From: Methylococcaceae bacterium | Lineage (GTDB): Bacteria > Pseudomonadota > Gammaproteobacteria > Methylococcales > Methylomonadaceae | Reading direction: 5' to 3' | DNA: 64,000 nt | Assembly: GCA_030693065.1 (NCBI GenBank) | Contig: JAUYBL010000025.1 | Coordinates: 1-64,000 of the forward strand | Shown: piece after piece, positions 25,695-31,708 of the stretch | How the letters are laid out: the number at the start of each line of letters is the position of its first letter | How positions within the stretch are numbered: position 1 is the first letter of the stretch | Program-made: the position numbers and the translations under genes | Notes under the pieces: model-generated | What the model was told of the DNA's origin: nothing | The model's input: the letters and a program-made list of their open reading frames with translations, nothing else | Database searches by the model: none

Positions 25695-26186
25695 TTATCG
25701 TTGGCCTTCAATGATGCAGGGATTTCCCTGCAAGTATGAAGCGTTAGGGTTAATGATAAACTGCGCATTCATAGCCGTTCGCCCCAATAGCATACGAAAA
25801 CGCATGCTGTCCCGATTCGTCAAGGTCATTTCTGCATTAATAATGAAATTACCAAGCATTAGTTGGGTATCGATAACATACCGGCGTTGTTTATGCCCAC
25901 CTGAATCAGAAACCAAACGCCTATCTTTGACTTGTGCATGGCATTCGACAATCACATCAGAGTTTTTTTGTAAGGGATGTATCGCAAACATCACCCAACT
26001 TGCGCCACCTCGTTGATAGGGATCAATGATGAATGCATGTAATGCTGAAGAACGGGCGCCAGTGTCAATTTTAGCTTTGATACGTTCAATATTGAACACC
26101 GGCAAAGCAACCCATTCACGCCAGCCAAGCATCGGTAACTGTGTTGAATTGTTAACCATTTTGATATGCCTTGGTCCTGTCGTCAT
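25695..26186 (-). CDS. Retropepsin-like ATP-dependent zinc protease family protein (DUF785)
   Basis: A 163-residue protein with LGWREWVALP, then IKAKIDTGARSSALHA (the D-T-G-A aspartic-protease-like loop) and RFRMLLGRTAMNAQFIINP, the hallmarks of PF05618. Related proteins are often encoded next to rimK and glutamate-ligase genes, where one is thought to act on poly-glutamate tails; no rimK is here. The first in-frame ATG (26186) or the second (26159) could be used. It is convergent with the antiporter gene. Confidence 0.8.
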   Translation of the reverse strand: MTTGPRHIKMVNNSTQLPMLGWREWVALPVFNIERIKAKIDTGARSSALHAFIIDPYQRGGASWVMFAIHPLQKNSDVIVECHAQVKDRRLVSDSGGHKQRRYVIDTQLMLGNFIINAEMTLTNRDSMRFRMLLGRTAMNAQFIINPNASYLQGNPCIIEGQR

Positions 26187-26278
26187 TTATATAGCTACCG
26201 TTACGACAAAAAGAGTCGTTCTTACTTGCAAATAGCTTTATGCTATTGCACCACGTTAATCAATTAAGAGAAATTTCT

Positions 26279-26515
26279 ATGCCCTATACCCAAGATATTG
26301 TCGAAGAACTAAATATTCTTGTTCGCTACAATTTATCCACCACACAGGAAGGCATCAAGGTACATAAAACTGCCGCCCCAGAAATCATTGCAGCCACACG
26401 CCGATTGTTCGACAAGGGTTTGGTAACTTTAGAAGATGGCGGCTATTTGACTGATCTAGGCCATGAAGCGGCAGAACAGGCTCAAACGGTGCTCAATCTA
26501 CTCACGCCATCGTAA
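26279..26515 (+). CDS. TIGR02647-family protein
   Basis: From the ATG at 26279 a 78-residue protein: MPYTQDIVEELNILVRYNL, then a wHTH-like stretch (TRRLFDKGLVTLEDGGYLTDLG) and EAAEQAQTVLNLL. The length and sequence fit the small conserved TIGR02647 family, sometimes annotated as DNA-binding, without a known role. The 13 codons before this ATG are not family-like. It is convergent with rpoH; the shared terminator hairpin lies at 26533-26570. Confidence 0.75.
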   Translation: MPYTQDIVEELNILVRYNLSTTQEGIKVHKTAAPEIIAATRRLFDKGLVTLEDGGYLTDLGHEAAEQAQTVLNLLTPS

Positions 26516-26590: not shown

Positions 26591-27454
26591 TCAAGCAGCA
26601 AGCATAATTGAAGATTTCAGTTTTTTCATGGCATTTTGCTCCAATTGCCGAATTCTTTCGGCTGATACTCCATAACGATCAGCAAGCTCATGCAAGGTGG
26701 CTTTCTGATCTGTCAACCAGCGACTTGTTAAGATGTCCTGGCTACGCTCATCTAGCTGAGACAAGGCATCTGTTAACAACTCTTGTTCACGCCCCTGCCA
26801 ATCAGCATCTTCAAGCAATAAAGCCGGATCAGCTCCATGCTGTTGCAGATAGTTTGCAGGAGCTGAGTAGCTTTCCTCTTCCGGTTCATCAACGGGCGCA
26901 TCAAAAGACATATCACGACTGCCTAGCCTTTTTTCCATTTCATAGACTTCTGCAACATCTACATTCAGATCTCTCGCAATAGAAGCCGCTTCATCACCCG
27001 ACAACCAACCTAAATCACGTTTAGTTTTACGAAGGTTAAAAAATAATTTACGTTGAGTCTTTGTAGTTGCAATCTTTACAATGCCCCAGTTTTTAATCAC
27101 ATATTCGTGAATTTCAGCCTTTATCCAATGCACAGCAAATGAGATAAGTCGAACGCCCATATCAGGATCAAAGCGTTTGACAGCTTTCATTAAGCCTATA
27201 TTTCCTTCTTGAATAATGTCGGGCATAGATAGACCGTAGCCGCTGTAACCTCTGGCGACATGCGCTACAAAACGCAAATTGCTCATGACCAGTTGGCGTG
27301 CGGCTTCCAGATCGCCATCATCTTTAAATCTTAATGCCAGCTCTCGCTCTTGTTCAGCGTCCAACTTAGGCATTTGTCTGACTACATTGAGGTAAGTGTC
27401 AAATGTGCCGACTGACAAATTAACGGGCAAAACTAATGAATTACTCACAATCAT
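26591..27454 (-). CDS. rpoH: RNA polymerase heat-shock sigma factor RpoH (sigma-32)
   Basis: A 287-residue sigma-32: region 2 (MSNLRFVAHVARGYSGYG, DIIQEGNIGLMKAVKRFDP), the RpoH box TQRKLFFNLRKTKRDLGW that separates RpoH from other sigma factors, and region 4 with the helix-turn-helix LHELADRYGVSAERIRQLEQ. It lies downstream of ftsE-ftsX, the standard gammaproteobacterial place. A CIRCE operator and a sigma-70-like promoter lie just upstream (27484-27543), so it probably has its own HrcA-repressed transcript in addition to read-through from ftsX. Confidence 0.97.
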   Translation of the reverse strand: MIVSNSLVLPVNLSVGTFDTYLNVVRQMPKLDAEQERELALRFKDDGDLEAARQLVMSNLRFVAHVARGYSGYGLSMPDIIQEGNIGLMKAVKRFDPDMGVRLISFAVHWIKAEIHEYVIKNWGIVKIATTKTQRKLFFNLRKTKRDLGWLSGDEAASIARDLNVDVAEVYEMEKRLGSRDMSFDAPVDEPEEESYSAPANYLQQHGADPALLLEDADWQGREQELLTDALSQLDERSQDILTSRWLTDQKATLHELADRYGVSAERIRQLEQNAMKKLKSSIMLAA

Positions 27455-27483
27455 TCCCCTCTCAAAAATTATTTGTTTTTATT

Positions 27484-27510
27484 CTAGCACTCTCAACGAT
27501 AGAGTGCTAA
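27484..27510 (-). promoter_or_regulatory. CIRCE operator (HrcA site) upstream of rpoH
   Basis: The inverted repeat reads, on the minus strand, TTAGCACTC - nine bases - GAGTGCTAG. The consensus is TTAGCACTC-N9-GAGTGCTAA, so 17 of 18 arm positions match, with the correct spacer. It starts 4 bases downstream of a -10-like TATAAA and 30 bases before the rpoH ATG, the usual position for HrcA repression. hrcA itself is not in the window. Confidence 0.92.
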
Positions 27511-27514
27511 CAAC

Positions 27515-27543
27515 TTTATAACAATATTTTCACTCGGGTTTAA
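27515..27543 (-). promoter_or_regulatory. Candidate sigma-70 promoter of rpoH
   Basis: On the minus strand: TTAAAC (27538-27543), 17-bp spacer, TATAAA (27515-27520). The -10 box is 5/6, the -35 weak. It overlaps the last codons of ftsX and ends 4 bases before the CIRCE element, so a bound HrcA would cover the start point. Confidence 0.5.
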
Positions 27544-28522
27544 GCCGCCTCAATTGAAAATAAACAACTATCCAAGACCCTAGCATACCCAGTGCGGCAG
27601 AAATAGCCAGCAGAGCAATGGTTTCTAACCCACCCAAAAACACCACATGAAAGGAACCATCATAAAGACCAGATAGTTTCTCAATCGGATATTTTAAAAT
27701 CAATGTCGTCAAAGTGACGATAAACCAAGCTGCAACACCAGAAAAAAAACCCAACCAAAAACCGCCATATAAAAATGGTCGTTGAATAAAACCATTAGTT
27801 GCACCAACCAATTTAGCAATCAACACTTCCTCTCGGCGGTCATGTAATTCTAAACGTATTGTGTTAGCCGTTATAAACAGCACTCCCATTCCAAGCAAAC
27901 CACTGAGCAGTGCAACACCGCGCCGAGCCAATTCCATAATTGATTGCAGCCGCTTGACCCATTGTGTATCTACCTGCGCAATATCCACTTCAGGAACTTG
28001 TTTAAAATGCTCAACCAAGTTATCTAAAACAACTACATCTTCCAATGAGTTTTTGGGCAATACCTGAATAACGATAGGCAAAGGATTTTTATCCAACGCT
28101 TTTACTGCGGCGCCAAAGCCACTGAATGTCTCAAACTCTTTTAAGGCCTGCTCTTTGGAAATGAGTTTGACATCAAGCACATCTGAATTTTTCTTAATAG
28201 TTTCGGCAAGTTTTTTAGCGTTTGCATCAGAGACTTCTTCTCTTAAAAATAAAGAAATTTGGTTGCTAGATTCCAGATTGCCCGCCAATTGCTGCAAATT
28301 TTTCACCAGAATATAAAAACCGCTAGCAAGGGAAATACCAATTGCTAATACCACGATTGTCATAACCGTTGCAAAACGCGAGGCAACTAAGCGACCAAGA
28401 CTTGAAAACAAAGCATGGGCATGAAGATCTCGGTAGGCTATAAGTCTATCCACCAGGTAACCACCAGATTTTCTGGTTTGCCTGCCTTCCGCTCTGTGCT
28501 GATTTCTAATACTGTGTTTCAT
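27530..28522 (-). CDS. ftsX: Cell division protein FtsX
   Basis: A 330-residue four-helix membrane protein with the FtsX layout: a cytoplasmic N-terminal extension, TM1 (ATVMTIVVLAIGISLASGF), a periplasmic loop of about 140 residues (SLFLREEVSDANAKKL, SGFGAAVKALDKNPLP), and three C-terminal helices with ELHDRREEVLIAKLVGATN. FtsEX is an ABC-type complex that activates septal cell-wall hydrolases through EnvC/AmiA-B and helps divisome assembly. The stop is 76 bp before the rpoH ATG; ftsE is 3 bp upstream. Confidence 0.94.
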   Translation of the reverse strand: MKHSIRNQHRAEGRQTRKSGGYLVDRLIAYRDLHAHALFSSLGRLVASRFATVMTIVVLAIGISLASGFYILVKNLQQLAGNLESSNQISLFLREEVSDANAKKLAETIKKNSDVLDVKLISKEQALKEFETFSGFGAAVKALDKNPLPIVIQVLPKNSLEDVVVLDNLVEHFKQVPEVDIAQVDTQWVKRLQSIMELARRGVALLSGLLGMGVLFITANTIRLELHDRREEVLIAKLVGATNGFIQRPFLYGGFWLGFFSGVAAWFIVTLTTLILKYPIEKLSGLYDGSFHVVFLGGLETIALLAISAALGMLGSWIVVYFQLRRLKPE

Positions 28523-29190: not shown

Positions 29191-31104
29191 CTAATCTTTT
29201 ATAAACAATGCATTAACAAAATTATCTGCATCAAAATCTTGCAAATCGTCTATCCTCTCGCCTATGCCTATATAGCGAATGGGAATACCAAACTGTTTGG
29301 CCAAAGCAAAAATAACTCCTCCTTTCGCGGTGCCATCAAGCTTAGTTAGTGCCAAGCCAGTAAGTGCCACTGTTTCGTTGAACAATCTCGCTTGTGATAA
29401 GGCGTTTTGTCCTGTACCTGCATCAAGAACCAGCAGAACTTCATGGGGCGCGGATTCATCCAGTTTACTCATAATACGTTTAACTTTTTTCAATTCATCC
29501 ATTAAATGGGATTTGGTATGTAACCGCCCAGCAGTGTCAGCAATCAACACGTCTACCCCCTTAGCCTGAGCAGATTGCAACGCATCATAAATGACTGAAG
29601 CAGAATCGGCTCCTGTATGTTGAGCTACAACAGGAATATTGTTTCGTTCACCCCAGGTTTGCAGTTGTTCAACCGCAGCGGCCCTGAACGTATCGCCTGC
29701 AGCCAGCATTACACTATGCCCTTGGATTTGGAGGCGTTTGGCAAGCTTACCTATAGTAGTAGTTTTACCAGCTCCATTAACTCCAACCACCAAAATCACA
29801 AACGGCTTATCTTGTTTGGGAATATGCAATGGCAAATTGCAAGGCTGAAGCATATCCAGTAATTCCTGCTTTAAGATTGCAGTTAATGCATCAACATCAT
29901 TTAGCTGATGTTTTTCAACACTGGTTGTTAATCGATTAATAATCGCAGCTGTAGCATCAACACCAATATCTGCCATTAACAGGCTAGCTTCAATTTCTTC
30001 AAGTAAATCGGCGTTGATCGATTTCTGTCCAAGCGGAATAACAGCTAATACACCACTTAGACCGGATCGGGTCTTATTTAACTGGGTTTTGAGTCTTACA
30101 AACAAAGATTCTGGCGTTTTTTCAGACGGAGTCTCAATACCTACAGTTATCACACCTGCTTGTTGAGCTACTTCCGCTGGAGCCCCTTGCTCACCTATAT
30201 ATCCATATCTACTATAAAAACTGATGGCTATCAGTGGCAACATAAGCAATATAGCAACTGAACTATGTGCCGTAGTTGCCCACAAAGGCGCACCCAATTC
30301 AATTATTGCAATACCAAAACTGATTTGAGCAATCAGTAGAATAATCAACCACAGAGATGCAATTCTAACTTGTCTAGGGCGGTTTTTTGCCCCGGCAGTT
30401 AGCGTTATTACGCTAAACACTACCAAGCAAAATAGCGCCCCCATTCTATGAAGCCAATGAACAGCTACCTGTAAATCCAAGCTAATTGGATAGGTTGAAT
30501 AGAGACTGAATAAATCACCTATGCTGCGATAATTATCTTGCGGCCACCACGAGCCATTACACTCAGGAAAACCACCACAAGCTAAAGTCGCCTGCCCGTC
30601 AGTTACGAGAATGCCTAAACCAATCTCAACTAATAACAAAACAACCGCAATTCTGGCAAATACTCCGACCCAACTGAAGCGTTCCAAATTCGAAATGGCT
30701 GGGTTAACTCGCAAATACATCCAAAATAGTAACCAAACACAAGCCATACTTAGCATCGTAAAAATGCTTCTATAAACAATAACTTGCTCATTAATTTTAA
30801 AAACAAACACTAAACTAATCAGAGCAGCGATCAACGTTAACAAAAATCCTGACGCTGCCATAGCAGCCAATCGACAATGTTTTTGCCACCAAGAAAGAAA
30901 TAGTAACGCTATGCTAATAACAGCCAATAAAGCTGGCAAAAAGAAATATTTAGAGTTTGGATAAGACTGAGGAAGATTCCAATCCTGACAGCTTGCATAC
31001 CAATTGCATATTAGAGAGGCCCAAACATCATGGTGTGTATTTAAAACAAACGCGGCAATACAAAACGCCAAAATCGCAGCAAACAGAGTTAATTTTCTAA
31101 ACAT
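29191..31104 (-). CDS. ftsY: CtaA-like (heme A synthase-like) membrane domain fused to FtsY (SRP receptor)
   Basis: A 637-residue protein from the ATG at 31102-31104 (an in-frame TTG at 31119 is possible). Residues 1-300 form an eight-helix COX15/CtaA-like domain. The second half keeps ACGGFPECNGSWWPQ, HWLHRMGA and TTAHSS, the last two holding the heme-ligand histidines. In the first half the loop cysteines remain (about 33 and 39), but TM2 has no histidine and the TM4 position reads VIVYRS with Tyr for His. After a linker of about 35 residues, residues 330-637 are a complete FtsY NG domain: SLFVRLKTQLNKTRSGLSG, GVNGAGKTTTIGKLA, DTFRAAAVEQLQTW, DTAGRLHTKSHL, TKLDGTAKGG, GIGERIDDLQDF. No ATG exists for a separate FtsY; one weak GTG lies in the linker. 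Confidence 0.9.
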   Translation of the reverse strand: MFRKLTLFAAILAFCIAAFVLNTHHDVWASLICNWYASCQDWNLPQSYPNSKYFFLPALLAVISIALLFLSWWQKHCRLAAMAASGFLLTLIAALISLVFVFKINEQVIVYRSIFTMLSMACVWLLFWMYLRVNPAISNLERFSWVGVFARIAVVLLLVEIGLGILVTDGQATLACGGFPECNGSWWPQDNYRSIGDLFSLYSTYPISLDLQVAVHWLHRMGALFCLVVFSVITLTAGAKNRPRQVRIASLWLIILLIAQISFGIAIIELGAPLWATTAHSSVAILLMLPLIAISFYSRYGYIGEQGAPAEVAQQAGVITVGIETPSEKTPESLFVRLKTQLNKTRSGLSGVLAVIPLGQKSINADLLEEIEASLLMADIGVDATAAIINRLTTSVEKHQLNDVDALTAILKQELLDMLQPCNLPLHIPKQDKPFVILVVGVNGAGKTTTIGKLAKRLQIQGHSVMLAAGDTFRAAAVEQLQTWGERNNIPVVAQHTGADSASVIYDALQSAQAKGVDVLIADTAGRLHTKSHLMDELKKVKRIMSKLDESAPHEVLLVLDAGTGQNALSQARLFNETVALTGLALTKLDGTAKGGVIFALAKQFGIPIRYIGIGERIDDLQDFDADNFVNALFIKD

Positions 31105-31111
31105 GTTGTGG

Positions 31112-31708
31112 TTAGCCAATTTGTGAAATTCTTAAAAGATGCATGAGGTCATTTTTTACATCATAAGGATCAAAGCCTGATTCATACTGCATCATTAAAT
31201 TCCCAAGCGGATCCATTAAAAAAATCATTCCATCTGGAATATTGCCAGATCTTAATTCAGTAATTTTTTTTACTATTGCCTCACTGGGTTTGATTTTCAA
31301 CAAAGTTTCATCACTTTCCCACCACTTGCTTGCAATTTCTGGGGAAACATCTTGTACCATTAGGACTATTCGCCGCGTACGGGTCAATTCTTTATTCAAC
31401 ATAAGCCGTAATTGCTTTGTTTTTTGAATCGATTGCATACAAAGTTCATTGCATTCTTTACTGGGAATGACATTAACAATCAACCAGTGTCCAGCAAGTT
31501 CTTTGATGTTGTCCTGAGAAAACTGGTCAAAACCTAATAATTCTGAGCGCTCTGTCGTCAACGCAGGCGTTATCAGCTGCCCATGATTAGTTCGTCCCGA
31601 TAAGAACTGCGGATTCTGTTTTAATCCCCAGGCCATCAAAAACGGCACGATAGACATAGCGAAAATACTTACGATCAATAATCTATTTTTGTTTCTTTGA
31701 TTACTCAT
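31112..31708 (-). CDS. SCO1/SenC-like oxidase assembly protein
   Basis: From the ATG at 31706-31708 (ATGA overlap with the SURF1 stop), 198 residues: an N-terminal membrane anchor (LLIVSIFAMSIVPFLMAW), then a thioredoxin-like domain with SKECNELCMQSI, a CxxxC matching the copper-binding pair of SCO proteins, and a later GMIFLMDPLGNLMMQYESGFDP. The histidine of SCO copper sites is not obvious. It is probably a periplasm-facing Cu/thiol chaperone for the CuA site or a related factor. It is followed by the CtaA-FtsY gene after a few bases. Confidence 0.7.
   Translation of the reverse strand: MSNQRNKNRLLIVSIFAMSIVPFLMAWGLKQNPQFLSGRTNHGQLITPALTTERSELLGFDQFSQDNIKELAGHWLIVNVIPSKECNELCMQSIQKTKQLRLMLNKELTRTRRIVLMVQDVSPEIASKWWESDETLLKIKPSEAIVKKITELRSGNIPDGMIFLMDPLGNLMMQYESGFDPYDVKNDLMHLLRISQIG

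Follow-up and report, generated by a model that had tools for sequence, protein, structure and literature searches.

A 64 kb stretch of the genome of a Methylococcaceae bacterium (hereafter the window) was found to carry a CIRCE operator, the predicted binding site of the repressor HrcA, upstream of rpoH, the gene for the heat-shock sigma factor sigma-32. Comparisons with relatives indicate that the rpoH CIRCE is real, almost certainly functional, and class-wide. We consider it highly probable that this repeat is the operator through which HrcA represses rpoH transcription; operator function is predicted from the conservation of the site, its genome context, its co-occurrence with hrcA, and its decay where hrcA is missing.

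A CIRCE element between ftsX and rpoH

The rpoH gene was identified by a TIGR02392 match of 397.7 bits (cut-off 323.1), with matches to the Sigma70_r2 and r4 domains as well, and it lies in the gene order ftsY-ftsE-ftsX-rpoH, which is common to the window and E. coli K-12. The gap between ftsX and rpoH, which are on the same strand, is 75 bp and contains the CIRCE element (Table 1). On the plus strand the element reads CTAGCACTC-N9-GAGTGCTAA, and on the rpoH strand TTAGCACTC-TATCGTTGA-GAGTGCTAG. It matches the 9-bp inverted repeat of CIRCE (TTAGCACTC/GAGTGCTAA) at 17 of 18 positions, has a spacer of exactly nine nucleotides, and lies 29 nt upstream of the rpoH ATG (27454, minus strand), which places it in the promoter or leader region of a heat-shock gene. 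The initial annotation had given the same arm match and spacer, on which our recount agrees, and had located a TATAAA box 4 nt before the repeat, where we also find it; the distance to the ATG, which it had put at 30 bp, is one nucleotide shorter. The element is the sole CIRCE match at three or fewer mismatches within the 64 kb, where shuffled sequences predict 0.02.

Table 1. Features of the rpoH region in the window, and CIRCE copies elsewhere in the source genome.
Feature	Position or locus	Strand	Basis or remark
CIRCE operator, predicted HrcA site	27484..27510	-	TTAGCACTC-N9-GAGTGCTAG; 1 mismatch in 18 arm positions
rpoH, heat-shock sigma factor sigma-32, 287 aa	26591..27454	-	TIGR02392 rpoH_proteo
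Purine-rich Shine-Dalgarno stretch GAGAGGGGA	27455..27463	-	sequence; abuts ATG of rpoH
ftsX, upstream neighbour of rpoH	27530..28522	-	TIGR00439
TGC-TAGAAT, extended -10-like element	27481..27489	-	right CIRCE arm + AAT
TATAAA box, second candidate -10 (TG-T-TATAAA)	27515..27520	-	sequence
CIRCE copy before groES-groEL	loci L002, L367		perfect core
CIRCE copy before hrcA-grpE-dnaK-dnaJ	loci L004, L365		perfect core
Third perfect CIRCE core of the source genome	before rpoH		

Several other features of the neighbourhood were recorded. Downstream of rpoH are a TIGR02647-family protein (26240-26515, plus strand) and a retropepsin-like peptidase (25695-26186, minus strand) that scored below the model cut-off. 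Further upstream, a single open frame (29191-31119, minus strand) encodes FtsY at residues 369-639, preceded by a heme A synthase membrane domain resembling CtaA/COX15 (residues 158-306, NF045570, score below cut-off), an arrangement that would give a membrane-anchored SRP receptor. A P-loop frame was present in 36 of 40 relatives scanned and was open to the edge of the locus in all 36; judged by eye, most of these frames continue into similar membrane sequence. The E. coli control was open as well, with a different acidic stretch.

HrcA and CIRCE copies in the source genome

The source genome (3.96 Mb in 38 contigs, 99.9% complete) encodes HrcA, with both Pfam domains matched: the C-terminal domain PF01628 at E 1.7e-63 and the DNA-binding domain PF03444 at 28.4 bits against a cut-off of 21. 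Exactly three perfect CIRCE cores were found in its 3.96 Mb, each preceding a heat-shock operon; in addition to the rpoH copy, one precedes groES-groEL and one hrcA-grpE-dnaK-dnaJ, in which the genes we take to be groEL, grpE, dnaK, and dnaJ were recognized from their translations. The check for hrcA and for CIRCE copies at groES and dnaK that the initial annotation had proposed therefore came out in its favour. When three mismatches were allowed, CIRCE matched in eight places, compared to five for a backwards-consensus control, a number near the chance level; three of the eight are loci L005-L007.

The site in near relatives and across the order

Out of 374 loci found in a protein search with RpoH, we analysed the best 80; these are close kin rather than independent samples, and their titles name Methylobacter, Methylovulum, Crenothrix, Methylomicrobium, Methylomagnum, and unspecified Methylococcaceae or Methylococcales. 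All 80 of these best loci carry CIRCE upstream of rpoH, with zero, one, two, or three mismatches in 28, 45, 6, and 1 of them, respectively. The element lies 26-36 nt before the start of the match, apart from one locus (L065) where it is 130 nt away. Conservation across the 80 loci is 90-100% per position in the arms, except for the last arm position (55%), and 36-82% in the spacer; conserved arms around a variable spacer form the pattern of a protein-binding site, here a putative one.

The order was represented by 151 genomes, 144 of which had an rpoH match at E 1e-70. In genome-wide counts, made with a slightly degenerate pattern and one mismatch allowed, at least one CIRCE was present in 142 of the 151, usually three among the matches listed. 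CIRCE was present in all 136 genomes with hrcA; hrcA was missing from each of the nine in which no CIRCE was found, and 6 of the 15 genomes without hrcA still had a CIRCE somewhere (Fisher 6e-11, kinship ignored). Upstream regions of rpoH were fetched from 40 order genomes and later from one more (G111), a non-random set picked for other families and for genomes without hrcA; in this set, the rpoH CIRCE was found in 25 of 27 genomes with hrcA compared to 5 of 14 without it (4 of 13 before the addition of G111, which carries the site). The two exceptions that have hrcA and no rpoH CIRCE at three mismatches are G026 and G030. In two other genomes, G104 and G144, which belong to the same family, HrcA was matched as two adjacent pieces, and an insertion or frameshift is possible.

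Decayed copies were sought by comparing the best CIRCE-like match 22-36 nt before rpoH with 406-415 equal windows of the same upstream region. Seven of the nine fetched order genomes that lack both hrcA and an intact site (G013, G019, G020, G027, G039, G043, and G066; loci L274, L275, L277-L279, L282, and L283) retained a degraded CIRCE, with 4-7 mismatches, 24-33 nt out, at scores that were unmatched by any window elsewhere in the same upstream. No decayed copy was found at rpoH in the other two (G056 and G146), nor in G026 and G030, where hrcA is present and the site missing. We read the seven remnants as operators that have probably been decaying since the repressor was lost. Within the order, hrcA is missing in genera g4, g22, and g29, plausibly through separate events.

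Distribution across the class and phylum

To represent the class we used 140 genomes, one per gammaproteobacterial family and including G000 (the source genome) and G003, in which hrcA was found in 105. An rpoH gene was matched at E 1e-60 in 130 of the 140; the 10 without a match, seven of them with hrcA, were left out. A site was scored when CIRCE occurred at three or fewer mismatches within 500 nt upstream. Counted per gene, CIRCE was present upstream of rpoH in 89 of 98 cases with hrcA compared to 5 of 32 without it (Fisher 2e-15, kinship ignored). Counted per genome, with G242 added (it is absent from the gene count), 90 of 98 genomes with hrcA carry the site, equivalent to 90 of 99 genes, as G180 carries a pair of rpoH genes, only one of them with CIRCE. 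The backwards consensus, at the same threshold, matched none of the 130 rpoH genes. Most of the sites (86 of 94) lie no more than 100 nt from the start, and the median distance is 41 nt. Some of the eight genomes that have hrcA and no rpoH CIRCE may have altered spacing, and of the five that keep the rpoH site and lack hrcA, three (G164, G261, and G215) have no CIRCE at groES.

Two known targets served as controls. For groES, examined at the 30 best-scoring loci (a non-random choice) and 18 hand-chosen genomes without hrcA, CIRCE was present in 26 of 27 class genomes with hrcA compared to 2 of 21 without it; CIRCE at groES thus tracks hrcA as expected for the system, which supports a CIRCE/HrcA explanation for the pattern. 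Upstream of hrcA itself, CIRCE was found in 18 of 30 chosen genomes, a count that did not change when the search was extended to 1000 or 1500 nt. The frequency of the site at rpoH (90/98) is therefore near that at groES (26/27) and above that at hrcA (18/30), and rpoH is, among the genomes sampled, a more consistent predicted target of HrcA than hrcA itself. Where the initial annotation had proposed surveying the rpoH upstream regions of relatives, the outcome is that CIRCE is conserved there and tracks hrcA across the class.

Outside this sample, 23 rpoH genes from further gammaproteobacteria were examined, 21 of which entered the counts by hrcA. Nineteen of the 21 come from genomes without hrcA, and none of the 19 has the site; both with hrcA carry it. 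The two genes kept aside are those of G376, with a CIRCE of two mismatches, and G344, with no CIRCE. For other classes of the phylum, 20 of 27 listed families were fetched, with one rpoH gene each; these genomes are taken to be mostly Alphaproteobacteria. Although 16 of the 20 families have hrcA, only one of the 16 (G326) has CIRCE at rpoH, which rules out these other classes as general carriers of the site; a further genome, G289, has a CIRCE-like site with four mismatches.

Candidate promoter elements that overlap the operator

Several promoter candidates overlap around the rpoH CIRCE. A promoter scan of the window matched TTAGCA-N18-TAGAAT with an upstream TG, one of 2 promoter-like sites where 0.8 were expected, so that the match is weak when taken alone. 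The -10-like part of this match, TGC-TAGAAT, consists of the right CIRCE arm and the following AAT, and its other-family form at rpoH is TGC-TAAAAT. The final T has a frequency of 1.0 in the 80 near relatives (best 80 of 374 loci) and 0.89 in the 94 class rpoH sites, compared to 0.15 at groES and 0.44 at hrcA CIRCE sites, making the TGC-TAAAAT element stronger at rpoH than at the other two. The TATAAA box is unchanged in the two nearest relatives (L008 and L009) and already reads TTTAAA in the third (L010), and we demote it from main rpoH promoter to candidate; TGC-TARAAT is the better conserved promoter-like element of the two. The best TATAAT-like hexamers were scattered in position across the rpoH upstream regions. 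Around groES CIRCE sites (L305-L334) there is a common TATTA just before the operator, with per-base frequencies of 0.52-0.89, a possible sigma-70-like -10 that would overlap the beginning of the operator.

A second element was found at rpoH in other families. When their rpoH upstream regions were aligned on CIRCE, GGAACTTT appeared at -16 to -9. GGAACTT, the sigma-E -35 motif, occurred with at most one mismatch at -16/-17 from CIRCE in 45 of 92 rpoH sites of other families (G000 and G003 are left out of this count), where its frequency in the rest of these stretches would predict 0.16. At this distance it was found in 0 of 27 groES and 0 of 18 hrcA CIRCE contexts. A 16-nt spacer from GGAACTT puts a -10 of the form TCTNA over the left CIRCE arm and the first bases of the CIRCE spacer, where the fitting T and A occur at 65 and 71 of 94 rpoH sites, compared to 3 and 8 of 27 groES sites. 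TCTNA was present in 26 of the 45 rpoH sites with the -35 compared to 20 of the 47 without, so the -35 and -10 are coupled weakly. By motif, about half of the other families would have a putative sigma-E (P3-type) promoter at CIRCE.

The window does not share this feature. The best match to a sigma-E motif (GAACTT, 15-17 nt, TCTAA-like) before its rpoH has four mismatches in 11 positions, and a sigma-E promoter was rejected there; in line with the missing motif, a search of the whole source genome for RpoE gave no TIGR02939 match at E 1e-10. Among the near relatives, 11 of the best 80 of 374 loci keep the motif.

Proposed mechanism and alternatives

Binding of HrcA to CIRCE, its dependence on GroE, and its release upon heat are established in other bacteria. 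At normal temperature, HrcA, presumably kept active by GroE here as elsewhere, would bind across promoter and leader of rpoH and hold down the synthesis of sigma-32. Unfolded protein would occupy GroE and release HrcA, and repression of groESL, hrcA-grpE-dnaK-dnaJ, and rpoH would then be lifted at the same time; the sigma-32 newly made would go on to drive its own regulon. In families with the sigma-E overlap, envelope stress would activate rpoH only as far as HrcA had been released. The initial annotation had placed the HrcA regulon above sigma-32, which these comparisons support as a prediction, with two amendments: the arrangement belongs to the class rather than to one genome, and related families would overlay a sigma-E-like promoter that the window does not have.

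It is possible, though we think it unlikely, that rpoH is transcribed mostly by read-through from ftsY-ftsE-ftsX or from a distal promoter, so that HrcA bound at CIRCE has little effect and sigma-32 is set post-transcriptionally. No terminator-like site was found in 27400-27700, which spans the 75 bp same-strand gap between ftsX and rpoH (0.2 expected), and read-through could thus bypass the operator; E. coli rpoH, moreover, is known to be largely controlled after transcription. However, the presence of the site in 90 of 98 representatives with hrcA, and the decayed copies in genomes without it, imply that binding affects fitness. Less likely again is a repeat that acts mainly as a 5' hairpin on the stability or translation of an rpoH mRNA started upstream, with HrcA in a secondary role. 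The rpoH leader does fold into a structure that includes the CIRCE hairpin (-21.9 kcal/mol, z -3.1, equalled by 1 of 200 shuffles), but any inverted repeat folds, a hairpin needs no fixed arm letters, and the presence of the site tracks hrcA, which encodes a DNA-binding protein; besides, sigma-E -10 and extended -10 positions fall on the arms in other families. That the site arose by chance, or was inherited without serving a function, has a negligible probability, with nothing in its favour beyond the shared ftsX-rpoH gene order and with the 0.02 matches expected in the window, arms that are constant while the spacer varies, the class-wide association with hrcA, and the greater loss of the site from genomes without hrcA than from those with it all against it.

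Taking HrcA repression of rpoH as the preferred reading, we lean, with little more than even confidence, towards an ancestral gammaproteobacterial rpoH that had a sigma-E promoter (and an extended -10) with CIRCE over the -10 and start, where HrcA gated sigma-32 and joined cytoplasmic to envelope stress. E. coli and Pseudomonas would then represent the remainder after loss of HrcA, and the source genome of the window would have kept HrcA and lost the sigma-E input. Teaching on sigma-32 control is based on E. coli, an organism without HrcA, and if most gammaproteobacterial families that have hrcA place rpoH under its control, the textbook scheme may be derived and trimmed. The HrcA and sigma-32 systems would, if this is true, be stacked rather than parallel, which offers a simple reason for differences in sigma-32 control between lineages, and the seven relatives without hrcA would provide a natural series of operator decay.

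Comparison with known systems

The operator has the same sequence and spacing as in the CIRCE/HrcA regulon of Bacillus and many other bacteria (groESL and hrcA-grpE-dnaK-dnaJ), and the genome resembles those systems in having hrcA and in carrying CIRCE at its chaperone operons; the difference is that rpoH is an additional predicted target here.

In E. coli K-12, an element GAACTT-N16-TCTGA between ftsX and rpoH starts 120 nt before the start codon, and we take it to be rpoH P3, the sigma-E promoter. No CIRCE was found at E. coli K-12 rpoH, where the best match has seven mismatches, and the HrcA search gave no match in the E. coli control genome. The -35 of P3 recurs with fitting spacing at CIRCE in other families. 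E. coli thus has a sigma-E P3 without CIRCE or HrcA, whereas the window has CIRCE without a sigma-E motif. In Pseudomonas, rpoH P3 is driven by AlgU/sigma-E, and HrcA does not occur in that account (PMC13104619).

Helicobacter and Campylobacter resemble the present case in having layered heat-shock control (HspR and HrcA) with HrcA as one tier. In those organisms the two repressors act on chaperone operons, whereas here the repressor would act on the gene for a sigma factor.

Geobacter RpoH has reportedly been the subject of work by Ueki and Lovley. The nearest precedent is a predicted CIRCE at position -51 of Geobacter sulfurreducens rpoH in Table 8 of PMC545781; for G. metallireducens and Desulfuromonas the table is without an rpoH entry, and the paper calls groESL the sole constant target of HrcA. 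Other reports of CIRCE at rpoH were not found in searches of openly licensed PMC papers. The Geobacter sulfurreducens case, as given in that table, involves the same site at the same gene and is a prediction in one genome, whereas the present case is class-wide in the Gammaproteobacteria and comes with evidence for co-loss of the operator and hrcA.
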